Origin: a virus | IMG/VR virus record: IMGVR_UViG_3300028840_008153 | Span: 35,143-99,142 of that record | Length of the DNA: 64,000 bases | Strand: one strand, 5' to 3' | Made by a program: the position numbers and the translations under genes | Shown here: in pieces, positions 9,572 through 61,709 of the stretch | Layout: every line of letters begins with the position of its first letter | Numbering within the stretch: position 1 is the first letter of the stretch | The notes under the pieces: model-generated | Seen by the model: the letters and a program-made list of their open reading frames with translations, nothing else | The model's database searches: none | Told to the model about the DNA's origin: nothing

Positions 9572-11455
9572 TTACGATGTTGGTGCGAAGATCCGATAGC
9601 CCATTCGCAGGATTCCGACCGAACCGGCAAAGGAGTCGGTCGACAGCCGACCGATCGAGAACCAAACGGACTCGCCGTCGGCAACGACGAAGGAGTCCGA
9701 CACGACCTCCACGTACTGCCCGGCGTCCAGGCTTCCGCACGCGCCCGGATCGAGGTCCGTCAGACTCGTATCGGTATCAGGCAAGTCTTCCTCGGCACAC
9801 CCGTTGGGCGGTGACAGGCGGCGGTACGAAAGGGGAAGCGCCGGTAGTACCCCGCTGGCCCTGGCCAAGACCCAGAAGCGCAGCTCCATTTGGGGATTTT
9901 CGATGAGTCCGGCGCTTGGAAGCTCAATGCGCGCGCGAAGATTCGAGTTCCGTCCCGTGGGGAACGCCAGAAAGAACGTGTCGTCCACCTGCTCCTCGCG
10001 CGCGTTGTTCAACGCCACGAGGGTGATGCGCCCTTCTTCCTGCTCTGAACCCGGCAATATGGCATTGACAGTTGCTTCGCCCCGCACCGTACCGTCCGCT
10101 TCCACGGACGACATGCCCGTGACAGGGGTCAGCGTGATGTTGGAGCCGGCCTTCAGGCCGCTGATGACCGGACCTCTCTTGAAGTTCAGACCCTCCACGT
10201 CCTTGAAGACCTGGTAGCCCGCCTGACCCTCTTCGGTGGTCAGCGAGAGGTCGATCCCGATTTGGAGCGCGCCCGTCTCGGCGGGCGTCACGCCGTCACA
10301 TCCCACGATCGTGATGGGGCTGCCCTCAGCAGGAGTCAGCCGGGTCACGACACTGGTGTCCGTCTTGATCACCATCTTGGTGAAGTAAAGCCGCATGGCC
10401 TTGGCGAACGGGTCGTTGCGCACGAAGCCCATCTGTTCGAGCGTAGGGCCGGACTCGCAGGCATGGGAAGAGCCGGGAAACTCTGGCGTACCCGACACGC
10501 CCGAACTGGAAGAAGACGATGAAGAGCTGGAAGAGGACACGTCACCATCGCACGGGCGGGGCTCCGTAGGCCACGGGGCACGATTATAACAGCCGTCAAA
10601 CCACCACAAACCGTGTTGGTCTATCTGGAAGCGGGACGAGGGCACGCCCACCCCGTCGGCTTCGAGGTATGCCGCTTCGATGGGCAGCGGCGGCCACAGG
10701 CGCTGCAACTCCTCATGCTGCGAGAGGTTGTATCCATACACAGCGCCGGAAGGGGCCATACTGTTGAAGATGGGGTCGTCAGCCGGAAGCCATCCGGGCT
10801 GATCGCTATCCGTACTGGTGAAAACATACTGGGTGTATTGCTGCGGACACTGGACCAGCCCGGCGGGTTGCGCGTAGAGGTCGAAGGCGTAGTGGATGTG
10901 CTCATCCAGCATCTCACGTGGCGAGGGCTGGATGTGTGCCGATCCGTCGCCACGCAGGAACATCAGGTAAATGCCTACGGGCGGCTGTTGCTTCGTGGCC
11001 ATCCCGGGGATCGAGGCAGAAAGGTAGTACGCGCCCGCGTCGTCCAGCGAGCTGCCCGTGGCTCCGATCGTGTTGGTGAAGTCGAAGTCCCGCAGGAAGC
11101 CGAACTGGAGCAAATCACCCATCGTGGCCGAAGACTTGGAGATCACAATGCCCGTGGCAAAGGACGATTCCTTGACCAGATACCCGCCCAGCGTGGTGTC
11201 GAATTCAACGGCTGCCAGCGCCGACTTGTAAGCGAGCGTGGTCGAGTCGAAGTAGACGTAGTGGCCCACCTTCACGGACGAGTCCATCGGAACGCCGCGC
11301 AGATAGAGCGCCTCGCTGTCCTGCAGTGCGTCCAGGCGGTCCTTGAGGTGCTGGGTCCGATCGACGTTCTGGCCGGGCATCCGATTGGCTATGGCCGCAC
11401 GGACTTCCTCACCATTCTGGATGGGGCGCGTCTGCTGAATCCAAGGGGTAACCAT
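9572..11455 (-). CDS. Large tail/baseplate surface protein with a 12-serine tract
   Basis: 627 aa. The N-terminal third has a helical segment (VDRTQHLKDRLDALQDSEALYLRGVP) then a beta-rich body. A 12-serine run (10500-10540, mixed codons) separates it from a C-terminal half of beta-rich repeats that ends with FSIGRLSTDSFAGSVGILRMGYRI. I cannot assign a family. Position between tail connector genes and the W-N-YP array suggests a fibre or baseplate decoration protein. The serine tract looks like a flexible linker between two folded halves. Confidence 0.55.
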   Translation of the reverse strand: MVTPWIQQTRPIQNGEEVRAAIANRMPGQNVDRTQHLKDRLDALQDSEALYLRGVPMDSSVKVGHYVYFDSTTLAYKSALAAVEFDTTLGGYLVKESSFATGIVISKSSATMGDLLQFGFLRDFDFTNTIGATGSSLDDAGAYYLSASIPGMATKQQPPVGIYLMFLRGDGSAHIQPSPREMLDEHIHYAFDLYAQPAGLVQCPQQYTQYVFTSTDSDQPGWLPADDPIFNSMAPSGAVYGYNLSQHEELQRLWPPLPIEAAYLEADGVGVPSSRFQIDQHGLWWFDGCYNRAPWPTEPRPCDGDVSSSSSSSSSSSSGVSGTPEFPGSSHACESGPTLEQMGFVRNDPFAKAMRLYFTKMVIKTDTSVVTRLTPAEGSPITIVGCDGVTPAETGALQIGIDLSLTTEEGQAGYQVFKDVEGLNFKRGPVISGLKAGSNITLTPVTGMSSVEADGTVRGEATVNAILPGSEQEEGRITLVALNNAREEQVDDTFFLAFPTGRNSNLRARIELPSAGLIENPQMELRFWVLARASGVLPALPLSYRRLSPPNGCAEEDLPDTDTSLTDLDPGACGSLDAGQYVEVVSDSFVVADGESVWFSIGRLSTDSFAGSVGILRMGYRIFAPTS

Positions 11456-11480
11456 AATTTGTCCTCTTATGACTCGCTGG

Positions 11481-11828
11481 TTATTTAGCCAGACGCGGAG
11501 GAGTTCCTAAGTTCATCCCCGTTCGCAGAAACTCCCTTGCGGCGCGGATGGTCGGGTCAATCGCTGCGTCTTCTCGATGAAGCCGCATGATGTCTATCGC
11601 CGTGCGCCGCGCGTCTCGTTTGAGCAATTGTTGCAGTCCGCCGGCGCCGGCGCCAAGCCCCGCGCCTGCTCCTGCTCCAATCAGGGCTCTCAACAAAGCG
11701 TTATCGTCATCATCGGCAGACATGTAACCTCCTACCGCTCCGGGAACCGCCCCAATCAAACTGCCCCGCAGCGCCGCCGACGGCACGGAGATCAGTGCTT
11801 CTTTGATCAAAAAGACGTGTGGGCTCAT
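11481..11828 (-). CDS. Small glycine-zipper protein with N-terminal FLIKEA tag
   Basis: 115 aa. It begins MSPHVFLIKEALISV, the shared tag. This is followed by hydrophobic, small-residue segments including GAGAGAGLGAGAGG, able to form packed transmembrane helices. The C-terminus is basic and helical. AGGAG lies 7 bases before the ATG. It interrupts the tail-fibre genes but has no fibre character itself. Inference: packaged, possibly membrane-active virion protein. Function unknown. Confidence 0.6.
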   Translation of the reverse strand: MSPHVFLIKEALISVPSAALRGSLIGAVPGAVGGYMSADDDDNALLRALIGAGAGAGLGAGAGGLQQLLKRDARRTAIDIMRLHREDAAIDPTIRAAREFLRTGMNLGTPPRLAK

Positions 11829-11838
11829 CAGCTGACTC

Positions 11839-12438
11839 CTAGTTGAACCGAATCGTCCAGGTAATCCCGATCTGGTGCCCGGCCACCTTGAGCACCTTAT
11901 CTATCCCTGAGTATATCCGAGAAAAGACCATGTCCTGACTTTGATCGGTCAAGTCGGGCGCGGCCACAAGAGCAGCCCCAAACACGGCGCTGTTGGCCGT
12001 ATCAAGAAACGACTTGCCGTGGAAGCCGACGGTCCCCTCGCTGACGCCGAAGAAGACGACCTGATTGCCCGCGTAGACGGCGTCCGAGCTTTCGATTGTG
12101 GGATTGACCGTCAGCGGGATGCGCAGGAAGTCCGTGTCCGGGCTGGACGAAAGGCCGTTGTAATAGCTGATCCCACCTTCCCTATCAAAGGCTGGCGGCG
12201 TGATGGAGTCGGCAGGATCAGCCAGGTTCTTGAACTCCATGTACATCGCGTTGACCGGCGTGTTCTGGCCGGCCAGAAGGCTGGCCAGGACATCCGCGCC
12301 GCTGTAGAGAATCAGGTTTCTCTTCTCCAACAGGCGGTACACAATCCCCGTCTTGGGATCGAAGGAGAAGATCTTCACGTCGCCGCGCGCCTGACGGGCG
12401 AGATCGAAGACCCCACGAGCGTGTCGCTGTATGATCAT
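11839..12438 (-). CDS. Phage tail-associated beta-rich protein
   Basis: 199 aa from the ATG at 12436-12438, which overlaps the stop of the previous gene; GGAG lies just upstream. It begins MIIQRHARGVFDLAR, then KTGIVYRLLEKRNLILYSGADVLASLLAG and NAMYMEFKN. The NLILYSGADxLAxLLAG...MYxEFxN pattern is one I associate with conserved phage tail/baseplate proteins. The rest is beta-rich and ends in ITWTIRFN. Probably attaches fibres or completes the baseplate; no enzyme motif seen. Confidence 0.55.
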   Translation of the reverse strand: MIIQRHARGVFDLARQARGDVKIFSFDPKTGIVYRLLEKRNLILYSGADVLASLLAGQNTPVNAMYMEFKNLADPADSITPPAFDREGGISYYNGLSSSPDTDFLRIPLTVNPTIESSDAVYAGNQVVFFGVSEGTVGFHGKSFLDTANSAVFGAALVAAPDLTDQSQDMVFSRIYSGIDKVLKVAGHQIGITWTIRFN

Positions 12439-14060
12439 CACTGGCACTCCATCGATACCTGACGCGCCGTGACGGAGGCATCCCCGTAACTGGCCACCGA
12501 TGCAGGCGGGGCGTCTGATGTCTCGAAAAGCTCCTCGAACACTGGATTTGCGGCGTCGAACACTTCGACGTCGTCATCCTCTGCCCCGGGTTCATCTTCT
12601 CCGCCCGGGACACTTAAGTCAACGGTCTCCGTCGGTACAACCTGTTCAACGAAGACGATGTATGTGGTGTGTGGCGGGATGATGTCCCGCAGGTACTTGA
12701 ACATCCCGAGCCCGGGAGCGTCCTCGTCGAAGGACCCCACACGTGCCCTGATCACGAAGAGATTGTTCCTCAGAAGGTTTTCCATGACGAACTGGAGTGG
12801 GTTGATTGTCGCCGGCAAGTTCGACGGAACCGGCTCAGTCTGGGGATCTTCTCGCAGATCCAGCAGATTGGCGAGCGTCTGTCCGTCTGCCACTCCTCGT
12901 GCGTGGACCTGCTCCCAGAACAGTTCCACGTCTGCCGGGAAGCCTCCCACCTCGAAACGGACCACTGCCTTGTTGTTTTCGTCCAGACCGAGGTACTCCA
13001 AGGCAACATTATGGTTGCGAAAGGACAGCTCCGCAAAATAGCCGCCAGAAAGGAAGTTGTCCGACATCGCCATCGCCGGAACCAGGCTGTAATCCGGGTC
13101 ATTGGTTGCCAGCTCCACGATCTCAAAAGCATCGGTCAAGGAGTCGCCCAGGAAGACGGTGTCGCCCACAGCGACAGTCGCCGTCGCCCCCAAGGGCGCT
13201 CGATACACGTTAAGGTCGGTCACGATCAGCTGGGAGGTTTCCTCCGTGCGGACGACCTCCACGGTTTCCTGCGGGCTCAGGCACACGGGCGCGCCCGAGA
13301 GGGCCGCCAGGAAGCTGGTCAGCGTCGCCTCCGTGAGACCGCCGATGACGCGCGAATCCCAGATTGCGTTGATCAGTCCCCTGTAGAATTCACTGGATTG
13401 GAGATGAAGCCCCAGCACGTATCCGAAATGTATCCACAGGTAATCCAGGTCCATGTTGCCCTTATAGACCCAAAGGCCAATCTCGGTGTCGACGACCGTG
13501 CCGTTGGAATCGACGACATCGGCCTTGGCCACGAGCGGGTCTTCAAAGGGGTCCTCCCGAAATCGGATCAGATTCCTATTTTTGTCGATGTCGTAGTCGG
13601 CGCCGGCCACCCAGGTCTTGCTGGGGTGGACCACTAGGTTTTGGAGTACGAAGGGGCAGTCCACGAGCGAATCGGGGAGCCGGATCTGCCGCAGGTTGGG
13701 ATTGTCCGTGCCGCCGTAGGTCTGCACGAAGCCCGCCTCGCGCCCGGGCACGGAGCCCGTCTGGTTGCCGTAGACCAGATCCCCGGCCTGATAGATCGAC
13801 GGGATGCTGTCCGACTCACTGCGCTTGGCGACCAGCAGATACCAGTCCTCCGTGTGAAAGACCGGGACACTGAAGCGGGAAAGGGACGCGATTGTCTCCA
13901 GATAGTTCAGGTAGGTCTGGGACGCCTCATAGCCCGACGAACGGTAGTGGACCTGGAGCTTGTGCCACTCCTCGAAGATGTTGAACCAGAACGATCCCAA
14001 CTGGGCCAGCAGCTGCGAGCCCTGATTGAAATCGTCGGCTGGATACGTTGGCAGTGTCAT
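12438..14060 (-). CDS. Baseplate/tail connector protein
   Basis: 540 aa. The N-terminus (LGSFWFNIFEEWHKLQVHYRSS) is helical and aromatic. The middle contains DYLWIHFGYVLGLHLQSSEFYRGLINAIWDSRVIGG and a run of beta strands. The C-terminus is acidic and Pro/Glu-rich (about 500-530). It lies directly after the tagged 95-aa gene and before the 199-aa tail protein. No recognised family. The position downstream of the J-like wedge protein suggests a baseplate periphery role, comparable in place (not shown in sequence) to gpI-type proteins. Confidence 0.55.
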   Translation of the reverse strand: MTLPTYPADDFNQGSQLLAQLGSFWFNIFEEWHKLQVHYRSSGYEASQTYLNYLETIASLSRFSVPVFHTEDWYLLVAKRSESDSIPSIYQAGDLVYGNQTGSVPGREAGFVQTYGGTDNPNLRQIRLPDSLVDCPFVLQNLVVHPSKTWVAGADYDIDKNRNLIRFREDPFEDPLVAKADVVDSNGTVVDTEIGLWVYKGNMDLDYLWIHFGYVLGLHLQSSEFYRGLINAIWDSRVIGGLTEATLTSFLAALSGAPVCLSPQETVEVVRTEETSQLIVTDLNVYRAPLGATATVAVGDTVFLGDSLTDAFEIVELATNDPDYSLVPAMAMSDNFLSGGYFAELSFRNHNVALEYLGLDENNKAVVRFEVGGFPADVELFWEQVHARGVADGQTLANLLDLREDPQTEPVPSNLPATINPLQFVMENLLRNNLFVIRARVGSFDEDAPGLGMFKYLRDIIPPHTTYIVFVEQVVPTETVDLSVPGGEDEPGAEDDDVEVFDAANPVFEELFETSDAPPASVASYGDASVTARQVSMECQ

Positions 14061-35093: not shown

Positions 35094-35713
35094 CTGTATC
35101 CCACCCTGTTTCTGCGAGTCTTCATGATGCCGGTCAAACTCTTTTCATCCCGGTCCACCTTGTTTTCGAGGCCGGGGCGCTGTTTTCGGCGTTGGCCCGC
35201 GCGGGCCTTCGCATTTCGGAGATGCTGCCGCATCCGGTCCAAATTCTGCTCCACGCGCGCGGGCGGCGCGGGCAGAGGCTCCGGCGGGGGCGGATGCTGT
35301 TGTTTGAAACCGGCCAGCGGGGGCGGAGGCATCGGAGGTCCGCCCGCGCCCGGGGTTCCGCCGGGCATCCCGCCCGGAGGCATCGGCCCCTGCGCGGTCT
35401 TCTTCAGCTTCGTGCCGATGGCCTGTTCGGCCTCCCGCATGAATGGCGAGTCCATGGCGAAGTCTGGGCGCACGCCGTACATCTCGCTGAGGCGGCGCTG
35501 CATGTGAAGGCGCTTGATGTACTCCTCCTTGAACTTGCGCTTCTTACGCAGGTGATGTCCAAGGAAAGGCGCCGCAACGAGCCCGGCGGATACCGGATAC
35601 ATCCACTTGGGGACATCGCCCCAAATGAAACTGCGCGCGGGCTGCGTGGCCTTCCACGCCCCTTTGAGGCCCTGCCAAGCCCTGCCAATGATGGCCTTCT
35701 TTTCCATGTCCAT
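35090..35713 (-). CDS. Membrane-anchored, proline-rich small virion protein
   Basis: 207 aa. An N-terminal amphipathic start (MDMEKKAIIGRAWQGLKGAW) precedes one hydrophobic span (MYPVSAGLVAAPFLGHHL, about residues 40-57). A basic coiled-coil-like helix follows, then a Pro/Gly/Met-rich linker (PMPPGGMPGGTPGAGGPPMP) and a very basic C-terminus. It overlaps the preceding and following genes. Composition resembles the other glycine- or proline-rich suspected internal proteins of this cluster. No family known to me. Confidence 0.5.
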   Translation of the reverse strand: MDMEKKAIIGRAWQGLKGAWKATQPARSFIWGDVPKWMYPVSAGLVAAPFLGHHLRKKRKFKEEYIKRLHMQRRLSEMYGVRPDFAMDSPFMREAEQAIGTKLKKTAQGPMPPGGMPGGTPGAGGPPMPPPPLAGFKQQHPPPPEPLPAPPARVEQNLDRMRQHLRNAKARAGQRRKQRPGLENKVDRDEKSLTGIMKTRRNRVGYS

Positions 35714-50787: not shown

Positions 50788-52668
50788 TCAGGTGCCTATG
50801 GCCAATGGGCGTTCCTTGGGCTTGGGTTTGCTGGCAAGTGCCGGGTTTGGCTTTTCTGGCAGCGCCGGGAAAAGACTTGCCGTTCCCTTGCCATACCGGG
50901 CACGATCGACGGCTGCTGCCGTTCCGGGGGCCGGAAGATCAGAAGGTTCGGGTGTTTCGGGGAAGTTGGCCGGGTTTGGTTCCTGCCGTTTGGCCATGAA
51001 CTGCTCGAAGCTCCCCTGAAAAGATGGCGGCGTCTGCCCGCCCGTAAAGCCCGCGCGCTCGGCCAGTCCGACGGTGCTCGGCTGCGCGCCTGGAGCCTCG
51101 CCCCTGAGACGGAAGAAGGCGTTGGTGCCCATGCGTCGCTGAAGATCCCTGCGTGCCGTGTCGCTCGAAGGGATTCCGGCCGTGTCGGAACGAACGGCCC
51201 AGCCGCCCGGCACCTGCGTTGCTCCCTCGGGAGCCTGCGGAATGCCGGCCCCCTGAACGCCGGGGCTGGGAGCGCTGCGAGGCGCTCGCGTGCCGCCGGA
51301 AGGATCGTAGCGCGTGCCACCGGTCTGTGTGGCGCGCGGTCCGGCCGGCCCGCCGATCCCGTAATGCTTCTCCAGCGCGGAGCGAAGTCCGTAGTTGCCC
51401 CGCGCGGCGTAGCGGATGGCCCGTGCCTGATCTCGTGGGTCTGTCAGCCCTCTCATGTTGATCTGATTGATGGCTTCCTGCATCCGTCCCTTCGCGCCAA
51501 CCTGCCCCATCTCCTCGAACTTGGACGCCTGTCCTTGGCGCTTCGCCAGGGCCGCGCGCGTGGAGGCCAGCATCTCATCAACGCTCTTGGGCTGCTGCTG
51601 CCCTGCCGTGCCGCCCGGAGTAACCTTTCCGCTTTGCAGCTGGTTCCAATACGCGCGTCCTTGGTGGCCCCAACGCCCCGCGCCGGGCGTTGTTCCGCCC
51701 GTAAACGGATTTACACTCCCGCTTTGAAAGGCCGGTGACGCTCTGGGGGGCACGCCTCCAGCGGGCGCCGCCGGAGCCGCTGTCGGGGCCGCTGCCGGGG
51801 CTCCCTGCATTTGCTTGAACTCGTTCTTTGAAAGCGGCTGCTTGCCGCGCGGCAGATTGCGAAGGTACGTCTGGTACGACGCCTCCTCCTGCGCGCCAAA
51901 ACCACTGAGATCGATCCCCGTGCTGCTGTGAAGCTGCTTAAGCCCGCGCCCTGTTGCACGCGCCCATTCTTGGCTCCACGGGTTCAGCCAGTTCCAATTG
52001 GAGCGTCTTTGTGCGTCTGCCTGCGCCAAATCCGAAGCGTAGTCGCTGGTCTTGAGAAGCACGTGCATCGCTGCCTGGTCTTCCTCGTCGAAGCCCGCCT
52101 GCTTGCAAAACAGGTCCACGCCGTGATCGAAGGCAAGCTGCTGCTCCCCATCACGCTCGGCGCTGCCCCAATGCATGAATGGCTGTTGACTGTACATGGG
52201 TCGCGCTCCCATCCGATACCGAGGCGTCCTCGTGACGCTTTCCATTCCGTGGCTGCTGAAGGGGGTATATCCTTGCGCCCTCGGATAACCTTGGCTGCCC
52301 GGATACCCCTGCGCTCCCGGGTATCCACCCTCTCCAGGCATTCGGGGCTGTTGCTGCTGGCCTCCGCCAAGCAGCTCTCCGGCCATGGGGACGAACGAAC
52401 CCACCATGGCGAGACTGCCAAGACGGTTGAGCCATGTGTCGAAACCGCCGCCGGCTGCAGGCGCTGCCGCGCCAGTGGCCTTCGCTGCCGTACCTGCGGT
52501 TCGTGCCGTATTGGCCGCTGTACCTGCGGTTCGCGCCATGTTGGCGGCCGTACCGGCTGCACGCGCGCCGCGCGCGGCACGCCACGCGCCCCACGCACCA
52601 CGTAACGCGCCCCAGAAAGCCCGCTTCTGGAGCGCTTGTTTGATTAGGAAACTCTCAGCGTCTCGCAT
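50788..52668 (-). CDS. Large tagged low-complexity virion protein
   Basis: 626 aa. Starts MRDAESFLIKQALQKRAF, a strong copy of the shared tag. Then Ala/Arg/Gly repeats (TAANxARTAG repeated), a membrane-like span (LGSLAMVGSFVPMAGELLGG), Gln/Gly/Tyr/Pro repeats (GYPGxQ), and a small domain LAFDHGVDLFCKQAGFDEED that resembles the end of 33390-34115. The remainder is Gly/Pro/Arg-rich and likely disordered. It lies between the two polymerase genes and may travel with the polymerase. No enzyme motif. Confidence 0.55.
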   Translation of the reverse strand: MRDAESFLIKQALQKRAFWGALRGAWGAWRAARGARAAGTAANMARTAGTAANTARTAGTAAKATGAAAPAAGGGFDTWLNRLGSLAMVGSFVPMAGELLGGGQQQQPRMPGEGGYPGAQGYPGSQGYPRAQGYTPFSSHGMESVTRTPRYRMGARPMYSQQPFMHWGSAERDGEQQLAFDHGVDLFCKQAGFDEEDQAAMHVLLKTSDYASDLAQADAQRRSNWNWLNPWSQEWARATGRGLKQLHSSTGIDLSGFGAQEEASYQTYLRNLPRGKQPLSKNEFKQMQGAPAAAPTAAPAAPAGGVPPRASPAFQSGSVNPFTGGTTPGAGRWGHQGRAYWNQLQSGKVTPGGTAGQQQPKSVDEMLASTRAALAKRQGQASKFEEMGQVGAKGRMQEAINQINMRGLTDPRDQARAIRYAARGNYGLRSALEKHYGIGGPAGPRATQTGGTRYDPSGGTRAPRSAPSPGVQGAGIPQAPEGATQVPGGWAVRSDTAGIPSSDTARRDLQRRMGTNAFFRLRGEAPGAQPSTVGLAERAGFTGGQTPPSFQGSFEQFMAKRQEPNPANFPETPEPSDLPAPGTAAAVDRARYGKGTASLFPALPEKPNPALASKPKPKERPLAIGT

Positions 52669-52872: not shown

Positions 52873-53793
52873 TCATTTCCCTCGGTTGAGGTTCTGAATC
52901 ATCCTGTGGATGCGGAGTGCATGCTGCTTGTCAGCAGCTTTCTTCGGCTCCGATTTCGGAACCGGTTCCGGTTTTGGTTGCGGAGCAGCCGCCTGCTTGG
53001 GCTGTGGTGCGGGGGTCGGCTCAGGCTCCGGTGTGGCGTCCTTGAGCGTCTCCTTCACACGACTCTCCACGCTCGCCTGCGCGACCATGCCACTCATGGG
53101 AGCGACCGGCCCGGGCGGGGCGCCTTCGGGAATCACGCCGCCTGGAACTTCAGGCGGTGGAAGGGGTTCGCCTGCCGGAATACCGGCCGGACCGCCCATG
53201 GGCATGGCTTCAGGGGGCATCGCGCCTCCGGCCCCGGGCGGAACCTCAGCGCCTGCGACAGCGCCGCCCAGAAGCTCAATGAGCTGATCGAGCTTACCGG
53301 ACAACTCGTCGATCGCATCAGCCGTGTTGCGCCCGCCTTCAGGCGCTTTCTCCTCGTTGGGAGCGGGCGCCTCTTCAACCGGGGGCTCTTCGCCGCCAGG
53401 CGCGCCTCCCTCCTGGATCATGGCGAACAGCTGCATGAGATCGTCCAGACTCACCATGACGGGCTGTCCGGGCGGAGGTGCGCCGCCGGCTGCGGGGTCC
53501 ATTGGAGGAGCCCCGCCGGCTGCGGGGTCCATCGGAGGTGGAGCACCGCCCATTGCCGGGTCCATTGGAGGTGGAGCGCCGCCCATTGCCGGGTCCATGG
53601 GCATGCCGCCCGCCGCAGGCGGCGGAGCGCCCGCAGCCATGGGGTCCATGGGCGGCGGTGCGGTCGCGCCCTGCGGGCCCATGGGCACGAACCCTTCCTT
53701 CTTGAGTTCGGCGGCCTCCCTCTTGGAGAGGGCTCTGGCCACGTTCTGCTTGGCCAGCTTCAACATCACCGAATTTACGCGGGGCAATTCCAT
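52873..53793 (-). CDS. Proline/glycine/methionine-rich repeat protein
   Basis: 306 aa. A helical, basic start (MELPRVNSVMLKLAKQNVAR) is followed by five imperfect repeats of GGAPPPMDPA (about 53475-53640). A helix follows (VSLDDLMQLFAMIQEG), then an acidic Pro-rich linker, a second helix (DAIDELSGKLDQLIELLGG) and a Lys/Pro tail. Most of it is probably disordered. It lies between the two polymerase genes. Could be a spacer, an internal core protein or a binding platform. Confidence 0.5.
   Translation of the reverse strand: MELPRVNSVMLKLAKQNVARALSKREAAELKKEGFVPMGPQGATAPPPMDPMAAGAPPPAAGGMPMDPAMGGAPPPMDPAMGGAPPPMDPAAGGAPPMDPAAGGAPPPGQPVMVSLDDLMQLFAMIQEGGAPGGEEPPVEEAPAPNEEKAPEGGRNTADAIDELSGKLDQLIELLGGAVAGAEVPPGAGGAMPPEAMPMGGPAGIPAGEPLPPPEVPGGVIPEGAPPGPVAPMSGMVAQASVESRVKETLKDATPEPEPTPAPQPKQAAAPQPKPEPVPKSEPKKAADKQHALRIHRMIQNLNRGK
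52953..52974. repeat. Dispersed palindrome, copy D (inside 52873-53793)
   Basis: GGAACCGGTTCC centre with TTTCGGAACCGGTTCCG; within coding sequence (KPEPVPKS). Similar to the junction copies but codon choice could create it. Confidence 0.35.
53475..53640 (-). repeat. Tandem 30-base-class coding repeats (GGAPPPMDPA)
   Basis: Five imperfect units encode GGAPPPMDPA-like decapeptides. DNA units are near-identical (for example two consecutive GGAGGTGGAGC-type starts on the plus strand), pointing to recent expansion by slippage or recombination. Confidence 0.6.
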
Positions 53794-57500: not shown

Positions 57501-60029
57501 GTCCACGAACTGGACCTGGCGGGAGCGGACCATGGCCCTGACCTTGGGCGTGTCCTTCGCCATTTCTCCGGGGAAGGCCACCACGGAAGCGGCGGCCTGC
57601 GCGGCCGAAACCATCTCGGGCTGACCCGTCTTGGGGTTGCGCATGGACGTGTAGAAGTGCCCATCGCTTCCGCGCACCACGCCTTCGGCAACCCTGGAGT
57701 CAACTCCGATCTTGGAGGACTCGGGAGCCCGGATCGGGTCGATGAACCCGAACTGGCTGGGCTGCACGTTCCTGGCTTCATCGGGCACCGCGTCAAGGCT
57801 GGGAATGCCGCCTTCGCCAAGGCGCAGGATGCGCAGGTTCTGGTCGTACAGCTCCATCGGGTTGACTTCTTCGACCGGCATGCCCATGCCGCTTTTCAGC
57901 AGCACGCTGTAAAGCTGGGGCGTGAGGGCGCCAGTCGGAATATGCTGGACGTTCCCCCGCAAGGTGGAACGCCACAGCATCTTCCGTCCCAGTTGCCCGG
58001 CATCCTTGCGGATGCGTTCGGCGAAGAAGTCCTCTGGCGAATGCAGCGTCTGGAAGGCCAGCGAATCACGATCGTCGATCTCTTCCTTCTTGTTGAAGAT
58101 GTTGAGCAGCTTCTGCGACGTGCGAAGCAGTGCCGAAGGCCCGGCGTGACGGTGACGTTCGCCCAGCGTGATGTCCGTCGTGTCCTCGTCCAGTTCCATC
58201 TTGTTGAAGACGTTCAGCAGCCCCTCGCCCTGTTCGTTCGGAGCGCCCAACGTGAAGCCGCCGCCAACGCCGGCCGCCGCACGCTTGCAGCCGAAGATCT
58301 CCTCGGCGCGCTTGATGGGCGTGTTGGGCTTGTGCACGGCGAACGTGATGTGGAAGCGGTACTCGTGCCCGTTGTCCTCGCCCTTCGGCAGCGGGGTCAG
58401 CCCCAGGCTCTTGCGGTAGTTCTTCAGGTCCGGGCTGTCACACTCGATGAACCAGACCCGGTCGACATCCTTCCATCCCGCAGGCGACAGGCTCACAAGA
58501 CGCTTCAGAGCGAAACGCGCGGGCGTGCCGTCCCGGGCAAAGCCTTTCCACTTCATGGGGCCGTGCTTCTTGTAAATCTTCTTGGCCTCGTCCGCTCGCA
58601 CCAGTGTGATGTGGGGAGAATTGGGGGTGCGTTCACACTCAACGCCCTCTCCCTTGAGAGAGGACAGCGCCGCATCCACCAGTCCCTTGTGGACATCCAG
58701 GTAGACCCACGGCTCACCCTTCTTGCCGATCTCCGCGCGAATGGTGCCACGGAACCAGAGGCGCTGCCATTTGCGGTCCGACTCGCGTGCGCCGATCTTG
58801 GCTTCCTTCTGCCACGAAGCCTTCTTCAGCACCATCTTGCCGATGACCTGCTTCTGTATCTTGTCCCAGGACGGAAGCGCGCTGATGCCACGATCATCCA
58901 CGTAGACGTCGGCCGTGACCTTGCCCGAACTGTACGGAGGCTGATCCGGGTTCTCGTTGATGTAATCGTAGGGAAGATCGTGCTTATGCAGGTAGTCCCC
59001 GATCAGCTTCTTGTCGCCACGGACCGTGAAGATGATGATCCGGTAGCCAAGGCGCTGGAACTCCTTCAGAGCCTTCTGCACGCCCGGGCGGGGCTTCGGA
59101 ATGCTCTTGGCATCGAACTTCTTGTACATCGTGGCGATCGTGCCGTCGAGGTCAATGGCCACGGTCGGAGGGCGTGTTCTGTCGGCAGCCGCCTTGGACT
59201 GCTGTTGCTGCAGCTTTTCCTTGTCGAGCTGCAGTATCTCCCTGTTGGCCTTCTGCTCGGACTGCGCGTCCTCCTGCAGGTCACGGCGGTTGACCAGCGA
59301 CGTGAAGGCACGGCCGACGGCGCCAGGGTCATCGGCCTGCGCGTTGGCCTGCAGCAGTTCGTTGCCCCAGTATTGGCGGATGTCCCTGTCCTGCACGCCC
59401 ATGGCCTTCAGGATCGGGTAGAGCTTCAGCGTCGATTGGCCCACACGCAGGCGGAAAAGCCCGGTCTGCGGCTCCATGTAGACGCGAAAGGACGGCCCCG
59501 TGCCCGGCTTGACATTAACATGCGCTTCCAGGGTTCCGTTGTCCTTGACTCGCGTGTAAACGCCGGGCCGAAGCCGCATCTGGTTGGCCACCGTGTACTC
59601 GTTGCCACGGTAGATGAATGTCCCACGATCGGTGGCGTAGGGCACGTGCGCGATGGTGCCGGCCTTGCGGTCCATCAACTTGTTGGTGGCCTTGTCGAAC
59701 AGGTGCCACTCGCCCGTGATCTTCCGCTCCAGCGACTTGCCCTGCATGATGGCCTTCTTCTGGTCGGCCAGCGAGAAGCGGTCCTTCTTGTCGAGGGCGA
59801 CGTTGCGAAGCTCAAGCCTGTAGCGGCTGTTCTCAAGCGGGTAGGCGGTGGACAGCGTGTCCATGACGTTGTTGAAGATGCCGTCACGCATCGTCTTGTT
59901 GTCGCCGAACCCACGGTAGGAGACGGGTTCGACGGGACGCAGCGGCAGCGGCTCCGGCGGCTTCACGGCTGGAGCGACCGGGGGCGCTGCCTCCTTAACG
60001 ATGCACAGCACGTCATCAAGTATCGCCAT
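54573..60029 (-). CDS. rpoB-rpoC1-like: RNA polymerase beta / beta' N-terminal fusion with HAD and 2H domains inserted
   Basis: 1818 aa. Beta part: GTFIYRGNEYTVANQMRLRPG (135-155), NMTPMVSGIKGGRLLMGAKY (863-882), GNNLRVAYMPYKGLNYEDAV (995-1014), DKLAGRYGDKGVIAKI (1141-1156), NPLGIISRGNPSQVHEALLG (1176-1195). Beta' part begins near 1405: WSHIELSEP (1410), KVPVIPPSFRPIG (1513), GAPVDIVGRATIT (1615), RPVLINRAPTLHR (1688-1700), and the catalytic NADFDGDAM (1727-1735). The N-terminal zinc ribbon of beta' is missing. Residues about 287-398 are a HAD phosphatase-like domain (AIDLDGTIAT, FTVRG, DVYVDDRG). Residues about 415-570 are a 2H phosphoesterase-like domain (HIT at 473-475 and at 560-562). Both sit in the beta lobe just before DDRDSLAF, the counterpart of DDIDHLGN. 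N-terminus DDVLCIVKEAA resembles the tag. The rest of beta' is at 48948-50786. Alpha and omega not seen. Confidence 0.95.
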   Translation of the reverse strand: MAILDDVLCIVKEAAPPVAPAVKPPEPLPLRPVEPVSYRGFGDNKTMRDGIFNNVMDTLSTAYPLENSRYRLELRNVALDKKDRFSLADQKKAIMQGKSLERKITGEWHLFDKATNKLMDRKAGTIAHVPYATDRGTFIYRGNEYTVANQMRLRPGVYTRVKDNGTLEAHVNVKPGTGPSFRVYMEPQTGLFRLRVGQSTLKLYPILKAMGVQDRDIRQYWGNELLQANAQADDPGAVGRAFTSLVNRRDLQEDAQSEQKANREILQLDKEKLQQQQSKAAADRTRPPTVAIDLDGTIATMYKKFDAKSIPKPRPGVQKALKEFQRLGYRIIIFTVRGDKKLIGDYLHKHDLPYDYINENPDQPPYSSGKVTADVYVDDRGISALPSWDKIQKQVIGKMVLKKASWQKEAKIGARESDRKWQRLWFRGTIRAEIGKKGEPWVYLDVHKGLVDAALSSLKGEGVECERTPNSPHITLVRADEAKKIYKKHGPMKWKGFARDGTPARFALKRLVSLSPAGWKDVDRVWFIECDSPDLKNYRKSLGLTPLPKGEDNGHEYRFHITFAVHKPNTPIKRAEEIFGCKRAAAGVGGGFTLGAPNEQGEGLLNVFNKMELDEDTTDITLGERHRHAGPSALLRTSQKLLNIFNKKEEIDDRDSLAFQTLHSPEDFFAERIRKDAGQLGRKMLWRSTLRGNVQHIPTGALTPQLYSVLLKSGMGMPVEEVNPMELYDQNLRILRLGEGGIPSLDAVPDEARNVQPSQFGFIDPIRAPESSKIGVDSRVAEGVVRGSDGHFYTSMRNPKTGQPEMVSAAQAAASVVAFPGEMAKDTPKVRAMVRSRQVQFVDRDQVDFELPKTSQMFTASSNMTPMVSGIKGGRLLMGAKYVIQSLPLKNPEAPLVQNLVGDEGDESFDERLGTRVGAVRARDRGVVTDVGKDYVQVRYADGTKENHELYQNFPFNRKTFLHNTPVVQIGDQIKPNQLLAKSNYTDDKGAVAMGNNLRVAYMPYKGLNYEDAVVVSESAAKMMSSEHMYQHEVEGDPTILTGRKEYVSIYPSQFNKEQLGTIDSKGVVKPGTVVKYGDPLILSLNKAKPTAVHRGHKTMFSDNAVTWNHEAEGVVTDIDKTKGGGYNVTVKAYMPAREGDKLAGRYGDKGVIAKIIPDDQMVHDKDGNPYHILLNPLGIISRGNPSQVHEALLGKIARKRGKAYKVPGFSEESMVDFVKKELQDAGMKDTDDVFDPTTGRKVKNILTGERFIYKLHHTAESKGRGRDVGAYTSEGLPAKGGEFGAKRISNMEINALLSHGATEVLRDAQVIRGQRNDDFWRAFRLGLTPPSPKVPMVYDKFLTHLQGAGINVKKDGERMQLFAMTDKDVTKLSSGGLTSPKTVAGDSLDEIGGGLFDRGLTGGHGGARWSHIELSEPIPNPVMEEPIRRLLNLTQNQYEQWIGGKVPYKGKYGGEAIHKALSDINLDDAIATNEQLIREGPRSKRDKAVKVLGYLKNMQKNKLRPEDWVMTKVPVIPPSFRPIGKYRDVPLVADANLLYQDLINSNDTLKEIREVVDVDSSADERLQVYNAFKAVTGLGDPVQAKTKEKKVKGLLKHVFGTSPKLGMFQRRVLGAPVDIVGRATITPNPDLNMDQVGLPEPKAWTIYRPFIMRRLVREGMPAMAAAEAVANQTPIARKALVSETQKRPVLINRAPTLHRYGFMAAWPVLTKGETLQISPVVTPGFNADFDGDAMNYHVPVTDEAVTDAVEKMLPSKNLKSSSNFKVHYLPKQEFLMGLYLASTAKKDTPPRVFASKADVIKAYKKGDISLGDRVIVK
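58320..59171 (-). other. HAD plus 2H insertion within the polymerase gene
   Basis: Encodes residues about 287-570 of the fused polymerase. HAD: DLDGT nucleophile loop (293-297), TVRG (335-338), DVYVDDR (374-380). 2H: two HxT motifs (473-475 and 560-562), each in a strand (SPHITLV, RFHITFAV). 2H enzymes open cyclic phosphates and HAD domains can remove terminal phosphates, so together they could heal RNA ends. The near-repeats LLNVFNK (604-610) and LLNIFNK (641-647) lie downstream. Confidence 0.75.
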
Positions 60030-60031
60030 GT

Positions 60032-61228
60032 TCAGGTCCGAAGGTTGGCTTCAGTATCGACGGGCTCCGGCACCTCGACCAGGATCGGGGCCGGCTGCCG
60101 CATGCGCTTCTTGCGCAGCTCCTCCTTGACGGCTTTGTACTTCTGCTGGCGCGGATCACGTGACTTGACCCAGCTTTCCGAAGCCGTGTGCGCGCCGTAG
60201 CCCAGCAGGGACGCCAACGCCAGGTAGGCGCCCAGTGCCTGATTGATCTCGCCCTGCGCGCTTTTCACGTGCGCCTGGGCCAGCCCGTCGATCAGCTCCC
60301 CGGCCGTTTTTGCCGTCTTGCGCGCCGCGTACTCCGCAGCCAACGCCTTCTCATACTCCTTCTGAGCCTTGGCGATGGCCTTCTCCGTCTCTTCGGCCCG
60401 CAGGATGTCGGCGTCCTCGTCGGCCTGGGAAAAACCCTCATGGAAGGCTTTGGGCACCGTGGTGGCAAGTCTCGGGTAGTACGAGACCAGCGTGCTGGGA
60501 TCGTCCGTCACGCGGCGTGCCTCACGCGTCTTCTCGGAGATGGTGCGGGCAGCCTCGGCCAGAGCGCTCTCGGCGGCCATGCCCACGGGCGCGAACATCT
60601 CGCCCAGCACGCCGCCTTCCTTCTCGCGCAGCTCCTCAGCCTCTTCCCTCGTCTCCTCGGCCTCGCCTTCCATCGCATCCAGCCGATTGTAGTAATCGGG
60701 AATCTCTTCGAGATGATCCTTGGCGATCTCCTTGGAGCGTTCGGGATCGCTGGTGTGTTCCATCTCGACCCTTACGCCCCTTGAAAGCTCACGAAGGTCG
60801 TACCGGGTGTCAGGCTTCCTGTCGGCCAGACCGCCCGCCAGAAGATCAGCCTGCTTCGAGCGCAAACGGGGCTCATACCAGCCCTGCTTGATGGCCGGCA
60901 GGTCCACGACCACCTCGCGTCCCGGCATGCCTCTGCCCACGTCACGAAGAAGAGGCTCTTCCTCCTCGCGCTTGCGTGCGCGCATGCTGTAGCCCATGCT
61001 GCGAGCACGTTCCTGCAGGTCCTCGATGTTGGCCTGGGCTTTCTGCTCGGCTTCTTCCTCGCTGGGCAGAATGAACGGGCGCAGCCGTGCCTTCTGCTTC
61101 TCCAGATCGGTCTTCCACTCGGGCGTGTCTCCCCTTTGAGCCAGCAGGGAATTGAGCATCCCCTTCCAGTCGATACCGCCGCTTTCGGCCAGCATCATCT
61201 CATTGGCCCGCTTTGCGAATTCACCCAT
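60032..61228 (-). CDS. Helical, coiled-coil virion-cluster protein
   Basis: 398 aa from ATG 61226-61228, which overlaps the preceding TGA (the longer frame is rejected). Begins MGEFAKRANEMMLAESGGID. Rich in charged helices (EEEAEQKAQANIEDLQERAR, then EAEETREEAEELREKEGGVL) with an Ala-rich end containing a hydrophobic stretch (NQALGAYLALASLLGYG) and a basic tail. The stop is 2 bases before the polymerase gene start, so the two are translationally coupled. Might dock or carry the polymerase; that is inference from order only. Confidence 0.5.
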   Translation of the reverse strand: MGEFAKRANEMMLAESGGIDWKGMLNSLLAQRGDTPEWKTDLEKQKARLRPFILPSEEEAEQKAQANIEDLQERARSMGYSMRARKREEEEPLLRDVGRGMPGREVVVDLPAIKQGWYEPRLRSKQADLLAGGLADRKPDTRYDLRELSRGVRVEMEHTSDPERSKEIAKDHLEEIPDYYNRLDAMEGEAEETREEAEELREKEGGVLGEMFAPVGMAAESALAEAARTISEKTREARRVTDDPSTLVSYYPRLATTVPKAFHEGFSQADEDADILRAEETEKAIAKAQKEYEKALAAEYAARKTAKTAGELIDGLAQAHVKSAQGEINQALGAYLALASLLGYGAHTASESWVKSRDPRQQKYKAVKEELRKKRMRQPAPILVEVPEPVDTEANLRT

Positions 61229-61709
61229 CGGTCTTGGCCCCCGGCGTCTCAACCATGTAACCGTAATAGAGAATCCAGCGTATGAAGACACGCCAGCTCT
61301 TGATCGCGTTGTCGTACTTGCGTTCCTCGACGGAGATCTGCGCGAACCCGTTGCCCACCAGCTGGAGGATCTGCTGGTAATACCGCATGTCCTCTTCGTT
61401 GGAGAGATCCAGCACGTTTGCGAAGATCTGCTGCCCCACCTGCGGGCGGAACTTGTCGGGGTCGGCCTCCTTCAGATCCGGGATCGAATCGCCCCGGAAC
61501 GGCAGCCCTTCCAGTCCCGGCAACACCATCGGCTGCGTGAAAACCCCAGCCGGGTCAATGAGCTTGTCAGGCAGCTTGGCCCGCCCCCGCTTGTCCATCG
61601 AGATCTTCAGCGACGGGGCGGCCGGAGCGGCGGGAGCAGGTGTCCCCGCCGTCACCTCCTTGGCTTCCTTGGCTTCCTTGGCCTTGTCACCATTCTTGGG
61701 CAGGATCAC
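61221..61709 (-). CDS. Unassigned protein in the polymerase-cluster leader
   Basis: 162 aa, GTG start overlapping the previous TGA. N-terminal low-complexity (AKEAKEAKEVTAGTPAPAAP), then an ordered part (AGVFTQPMVLPGLEGLPFRG, then NEEDMRYYQQILQLVGNGFA, then WRVFIRWILYYGYMVETPGA). The aromatic C-terminus may bind another virion protein or membrane. No family recognised. Confidence 0.5.
   Translation of the reverse strand: MILPKNGDKAKEAKEAKEVTAGTPAPAAPAAPSLKISMDKRGRAKLPDKLIDPAGVFTQPMVLPGLEGLPFRGDSIPDLKEADPDKFRPQVGQQIFANVLDLSNEEDMRYYQQILQLVGNGFAQISVEERKYDNAIKSWRVFIRWILYYGYMVETPGAKTDG

Follow-up and report, generated by a model that had tools for sequence, protein, structure and literature searches.

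We report that a phage RNA polymerase gene in viral record IMGVR_UViG_3300028840_008153 (163142 bases) carries two enzyme domains inside its beta subunit. The gene lies in the 64,000-nucleotide stretch analysed here (the window, positions 35,143 to 99,142 of the record); it fuses beta to the N-terminal part of beta', and a HAD phosphatase domain followed by a 2H phosphoesterase domain is embedded in the beta lobe. Comparison with related phages gives good support to the view that the 2H domain, together with HAD in some members, moved from a separate upstream gene into the lobe, apparently once. Healing of RNA ends is the leading and best-supported function for this cassette, and we hold the explanation as a whole, relocation together with end healing, at roughly even confidence on comparative sequence grounds. 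If correct, it would describe, as far as the literature searched shows, the first case of a module for RNA-end healing embedded in a polymerase. Positions below are window coordinates unless genome or stretch coordinates are named; L100 is a stretch of the window phage's own genome, and L004, L012, L118 and similar handles are stretches of relatives.

HAD and 2H domains within the beta lobe

The insert is flanked by a true polymerase. In the flanks Pfam finds Rpb2_6 (E=1e-48) together with Rpb1_2 (E=1e-24), comparison of the family profile with solved bacterial beta chains gives E=4.5e-42, a 900-residue model resembles bacterial beta structures, and the beta' catalytic motif NADFDGD at residues 1727-1733 is that of a multisubunit beta/beta' enzyme. 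The frame is stop-free through all 1818 codons, and within it the HAD motifs and two HxT motifs follow one another in order and intact, as a preliminary description made from the sequence alone had stated, with residue numbers (D293, H473 and H560) that proved exact. The span given there, 58320-59171, does cover residues 287-570, but the whole insert with its linkers is wider, at residues about 255-600. Its placement between conserved beta segments of the lobe agrees with the Pfam and family-profile matches in the flanks and with an alignment of about 80 relatives.

Searched with the insert alone under Pfam's curated cut-offs, 2H-SAK matches at E=9e-8 and 32.9 bits (cut-off 27), and PHROG 1238, a small HAD family labelled phosphoheptose isomerase, matches at E=1e-26. 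The HAD superfamily motifs occur in order as DxDGT (293), T/S (335), K (370) and DD (378-379), and the domain includes GKVTADVYVDDR, whose last residue is 380; against the PNKP 3'-phosphatase family HAD_PNKP (PF25109) it scores 16.6 bits, below the cut-off of 27.6. AlphaFold2 predicts both domains confidently (mean predicted local distance difference score, pLDDT, 84.5, and >90 over the greater part of each domain), with their mutual orientation uncertain (predicted template modelling score, pTM, 0.49). Foldseek relates the HAD model to 2obb (E=1.5e-5), 1xpj, T4 Pnkp, Pnkp1/Rnl/Hen1 and AfhF, an assignment that agrees with the sequence profiles, which also recover PNKP-type HADs, and relates the two-lobed 2H model to drCPDase, Acb1 and Usb1 at probabilities of about 0.9-0.98 but with E-values only of 4e-3 and up and weak sequence-profile support for these matches. 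With 2H-SAK above its cut-off, these predictions sustain the HAD and 2H folds that had been proposed from motifs. The nearest solved relatives of the insert domains include the RNA 2',3'-cyclic phosphodiesterase 5h7e, T4 Pnkp and Pnkp1/Rnl/Hen1. All catalytic residues are retained across the embedded copies, both Hx[T/S] motifs being kept in 6/6 embedded and 12/12 aligned standalone 2H domains.

Table 1. Features of the polymerase locus in window coordinates.
Feature	Position	Strand	Basis
Fused phage RNA polymerase beta and N-terminal beta' gene, 1818 amino acids	54573..60029	-	single open frame; Pfam/NCBIfam polymerase matches
Complete lobe insertion including linkers, residues about 256-605	58215..59264	-	missing from about 75 relatives, flanks joined directly
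HAD phosphatase domain, residues about 276-404	58818..59204	-	PHROG 1238, NCBIfam HAD_phos_BT0820, Foldseek 2obb
HAD motif I DLDGT, residues 293-297	59139..59153	-	kept in alignment A4
HAD motif II TVRGD, residues 335-339	59013..59027	-	T and RG invariant in alignment A4
HAD motifs III/IV K...DVYVDDR, residues 367-380	58890..58931	-	read in translation
2H phosphoesterase domain, residues about 410-570	58320..58802	-	Pfam 2H-SAK; AlphaFold2; Foldseek
First HxT motif PHITLV, H473	58599..58616	-	Hx[T/S] in all embedded and aligned standalone copies
Second HxT motif FHITFA, H560	58338..58355	-	Hx[T/S] in all embedded and aligned standalone copies
Beta N-terminal part preceding insert, residues about 34-257	59260..59930	-	alignment with about 80 relatives
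Separate beta' C-terminal gene, 612 amino acids	48948..50786	-	Pfam Rpb1_5 E=2e-19

A lobe slot probably filled from a neighbouring gene

Nearly all of the family loci aligned join residue ~255 to ~605 directly in one frame, and the related polymerases without any insert number about 75. Among GenBank relatives, Salmonella phage Arash and Vibrio phage D69 have the polymerase covered with no room for an insert, and a 2H search of the named phages at E 0.1 gave no match, so the embedded form has no cultured host. In E. coli beta numbering the insertion site is bracketed by residues ~224 and ~420, and alignments of profiles with the beta subunits of Bacillus and mycobacteria place it beside the RPGEPPT turn (371-377), C-terminal to SI1. 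It had earlier been described as near SI1; it does lie beside SI1 in the lobe, though not at the SI1 site. Exact equivalence to SI1 (betai4), judged by a lobe position after E. coli beta 225 and homologous sequence, was rejected on the aligned site and on the HAD/2H sequence of the insert. SI1 and other lineage-specific insertions are likewise independently folded domains in the beta lobe, whereas the window insert is adjacent rather than identical in position, unrelated in sequence, and bears enzyme domains.

The contents of the slot vary: HAD and 2H in the window; SET, HAD and 2H in L012 and L013; SET and 2H in L106; a ~120-residue domain without assigned family plus 2H in L078; and a Cys-rich domain (HiPIP-like, weak) plus 2H in L008 and L126. 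L129, the closest polymerase relative, carries a ~100-residue Zn-finger-like piece alone (CxxC..H..C, L129:6649-6960), its record lacking 2H altogether, and the slot of L128 is empty. In L004, beta is encoded by two overlapping genes (L004:9841-10545 and 10542-14054) whose division falls precisely at the lobe insertion site. Our search of related phage beta subunits thus recovered the same domains at the same site on independent contigs, which excludes the assembly chimera that the preliminary description had allowed for; since frames and motifs are intact as well, and the composition of the insert is near that of the rest of the gene, the chance of a chimera or a pseudogene fusion is negligible. 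Origin as an intein or homing element was likewise rejected: the ends are not intein-like and the insert has no intein domain, though inteins are detected elsewhere in relatives, at two conserved sites near beta residues 771 and 960. These inteins or intein-like insertions (L012:6824-8001, L106:6131-7164, L004:11120-12147, and L078 after 6417) have confirmed LAGLIDADG or splicing domains at three loci, L078 being without a Pfam match.

The embedded 2H domains form one clade (support 100/100). Because the six embedded forms group with L128 and L129 on the polymerase tree (88/72), the distribution is consistent with one gain and about two losses of the embedded domain. A 2H profile search covered 29 records of the window phage's group, many of them fragments and related to one another, so that the counts are not independent. 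Exactly one 2H was found in 22 of the 29, never two, with 6 in the polymerase and 16 as a separate gene; the other 7 gave zero matches. Where 2H stands alone, its gene shares the polymerase's strand and is found about 4-16 kb upstream. Close HAD relatives (five at E<1e-40) and SET domains (six of six matches) occur only fused to 2H or within about 2.5 kb of it, and 2H plus HAD or SET is therefore a linked module, embedded or free. One standalone 2H is fused to SET of the lysine methyltransferase type in a 1071-residue protein (L114:4743-7955), and a polyvalent-type InPase domain is fused to HAD near another (L002:6696-8399).

The comparison thus gives good support to a modular lobe slot that received its contents when a neighbouring gene was relocated: the cassette, separate in most members of the lineage, would have entered the beta-lobe loop and diversified there, the window preserving the HAD and 2H state. 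Members of the lineage form a ready-made series for comparison (no insert, cassette in its own upstream gene, HAD+2H, SET+2H, SET+HAD+2H, Zn finger only) that allows asking why enzymes get tethered to transcription.

Proposed end healing and its alternatives

We favour end healing because a kinase, a LigD 3'-phosphoesterase, a ligase and a Nudix-kinase-HAD protein associate with 2H in these phages. One 934-residue protein (L118:4854-7655) combines 2H, a P-loop kinase, a Zn ribbon, a LigD 3'-phosphoesterase (PF13298, E=7e-8; solved relative 3n9b, E=2e-9) and the ATP-grasp ligase motifs KLDGAS/KGELYG/EGVVI, and is a candidate for a complete system that heals and seals ends; in L117 a 2H gene is followed directly by a Nudix-kinase-HAD gene. 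The window's genome encodes a 1212-residue SNF2 helicase-LigD 3'-phosphoesterase-ATP-grasp ligase (L100:6002-9640, genome 105001-108639) about 10 kb upstream of the polymerase. LigD-type genes accompany 4/5 long records with an embedded 2H and 1/13 with a standalone one (Fisher p=0.008, uncorrected for kinship). These associations bear on the debate over whether the phage 2H-SAK family repairs ends or destroys defence signals.

In the mechanism we propose, both domains would be active, the 2H domain opening 2',3'-cyclic phosphate RNA ends and the HAD domain stripping the remaining terminal phosphate to give back 3'-OH ends. Tethering would bring healing to the phage polymerase, where it may act on RNA, nascent or backtracked, that host ribonucleases have cut, or on further ends in the vicinity, and the upstream SNF2-LigD-phosphoesterase-ligase protein is a possible sealing partner. 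In E. coli, the downstream DNA channel is bounded on one side by the lobe-SI1, which also touches TraR, a factor of the secondary channel (PMC6970531); a domain at the insert site could thus reach material exiting the secondary channel. That the lobe-borne 2',3'-cyclic phosphodiesterase and 3'-phosphatase specifically act at the polymerase to restore 3'-OH ends fit for extension or ligation, after cuts by host defence ribonucleases, is a version we advance tentatively and regard as rather doubtful.

Several observations weigh against end healing. HAD is missing from 4/6 of the embedded forms, which means that not all of them have the two-step pair, and the fold similarity of 2H to Acb1 equals that to cyclic phosphodiesterases; comparison of predicted folds by itself cannot tell these two activities apart. 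RtcB was not found in the 21 related records searched, the sole RNA_ligase (PF09414) match in related records is below cut-off (in G018), and the LigD-associated ligase resembles DNA ligases of non-homologous end joining as much as RNA ligases. Iyer et al. 2017 observed no association of phage 2H domains with RNA ligases and preferred functions as RNases or on 2'-5' oligoadenylates (PMC5512222); the ligase links reported here would run counter to that argument, subject to the caveat just given on the ligase's likeness.

The preliminary description had already suggested RNA-end healing, a proposal that gains from the gene associations in L118 and L117 while leaving some room for anti-defence nucleotide cleavage. 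Under the latter, 2H would degrade cyclic oligonucleotide or 2'-5' linked signals of cyclic-oligonucleotide-based antiphage signalling (CBASS) or type III CRISPR systems in the manner of Acb1, HAD would trim the products, and the polymerase would be a carrier. Iyer et al. 2017 put forward such a signal-directed role for the 2H domains of phages (PMC5512222), and the Acb1 structures 7t26 and 9q2g are among the Foldseek matches, 9q2g also appearing weakly in the profile search (E=0.42). We nonetheless consider it unlikely: the window 2H shares a fold with this anti-CBASS nuclease but no significant sequence match and not its context, the fusion of a relative's 2H to kinase, LigD 3'-phosphoesterase and ligase points to polynucleotide ends, and scanning the insert with PADLOC gave no match, a weak result given that its library consists of defence proteins. 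Either substrate, RNA ends or defence signals, would fit a role for the slot as a cargo bay. Were the polymerase in the virion, the insert would be injected along with it, as phiKZ-type virion RNA polymerases are (PMC13282480), and the slot could deliver early enzymes (2H, HAD, SET and others) with the genome, proximity to transcription being incidental. The varied effector-like contents of the slot favour this, as does the delivery of 2H domains in this way by polyvalent phage proteins (PMC5512222), and the polymerase gene sits upstream of the head maturation protease and major head genes and adjoins the portal gene in Salmonella phage Arash; gene order alone is, however, a weak basis for placing the polymerase in the virion, and we regard delivery as possible rather than probable.

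The insert might instead act as SI1 does with TraR in E. coli (PMC6970531), binding factors or shaping the downstream DNA channel with catalysis secondary, and a slot that tolerates widely differing contents or none would suit such a role; it is improbable given that both 2H catalytic histidines are kept in every embedded copy despite deep divergence. Still another reading takes the HAD domain for a sugar or nucleotide phosphatase, like AfhF or heptose-phosphate enzymes, serving DNA modification or surface sugars. Foldseek matches to 9iqw AfhF and GmhB and the phosphoheptose isomerase label of PHROG 1238 are in its favour, but the close HADs accompany 2H, kinase and LigD-type genes rather than sugar genes, making this reading quite improbable.

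The window polymerase resembles described systems to differing degrees. Phage 2H and 'Swiss-army-knife' HAD domains have already been proposed as RNA-end healers (PMC7824862), and those of large phages (Pfam 2H-SAK; PHROG 1238) belong to the same families with intact motifs, but they are described mainly as standalone or in polyvalent proteins, whereas the window pair lies inside an RNA polymerase subunit. T4 Pnkp, Pnkp1-Rnl-Hen1 and LigD systems share the logic of healing phosphatase or phosphoesterase, kinase and ligase, domains that the window's relatives fuse; they have no link to transcription, and the window HAD falls below the HAD_PNKP cut-off. In the phiKZ group a phage multisubunit polymerase is likewise joined to a phosphohydrolase, an HD domain fused to a split beta subunit (PMC7824862), although enzyme and polymerase lineage differ and the window shows a lobe insertion. 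The preliminary description knew of no polymerase with such an insertion, and we found no published polymerase with embedded HAD/2H domains in a literature search that had most subscription journals outside its coverage, which makes it weak evidence of absence.

Neighbouring genes

The gene directly upstream of the polymerase (60032-61291) has a DUF5661 domain, which also follows 2H in L121. Between the beta-beta' N-terminal gene and the beta' C-terminal gene lie two low-complexity proteins rich in Pro, Gly and Ala and without a family match (50788-52668 and 52873-53793). Directly downstream of the SNF2-ligase gene is a caspase-domain gene (Peptidase_C14, E=3.5e-26; L100:5100-6047, genome 104099-105046), and L100:1400-4198 encodes a probable tail fibre, 932 residues long, in which collagen repeats occur together with a YadA-head repeat.
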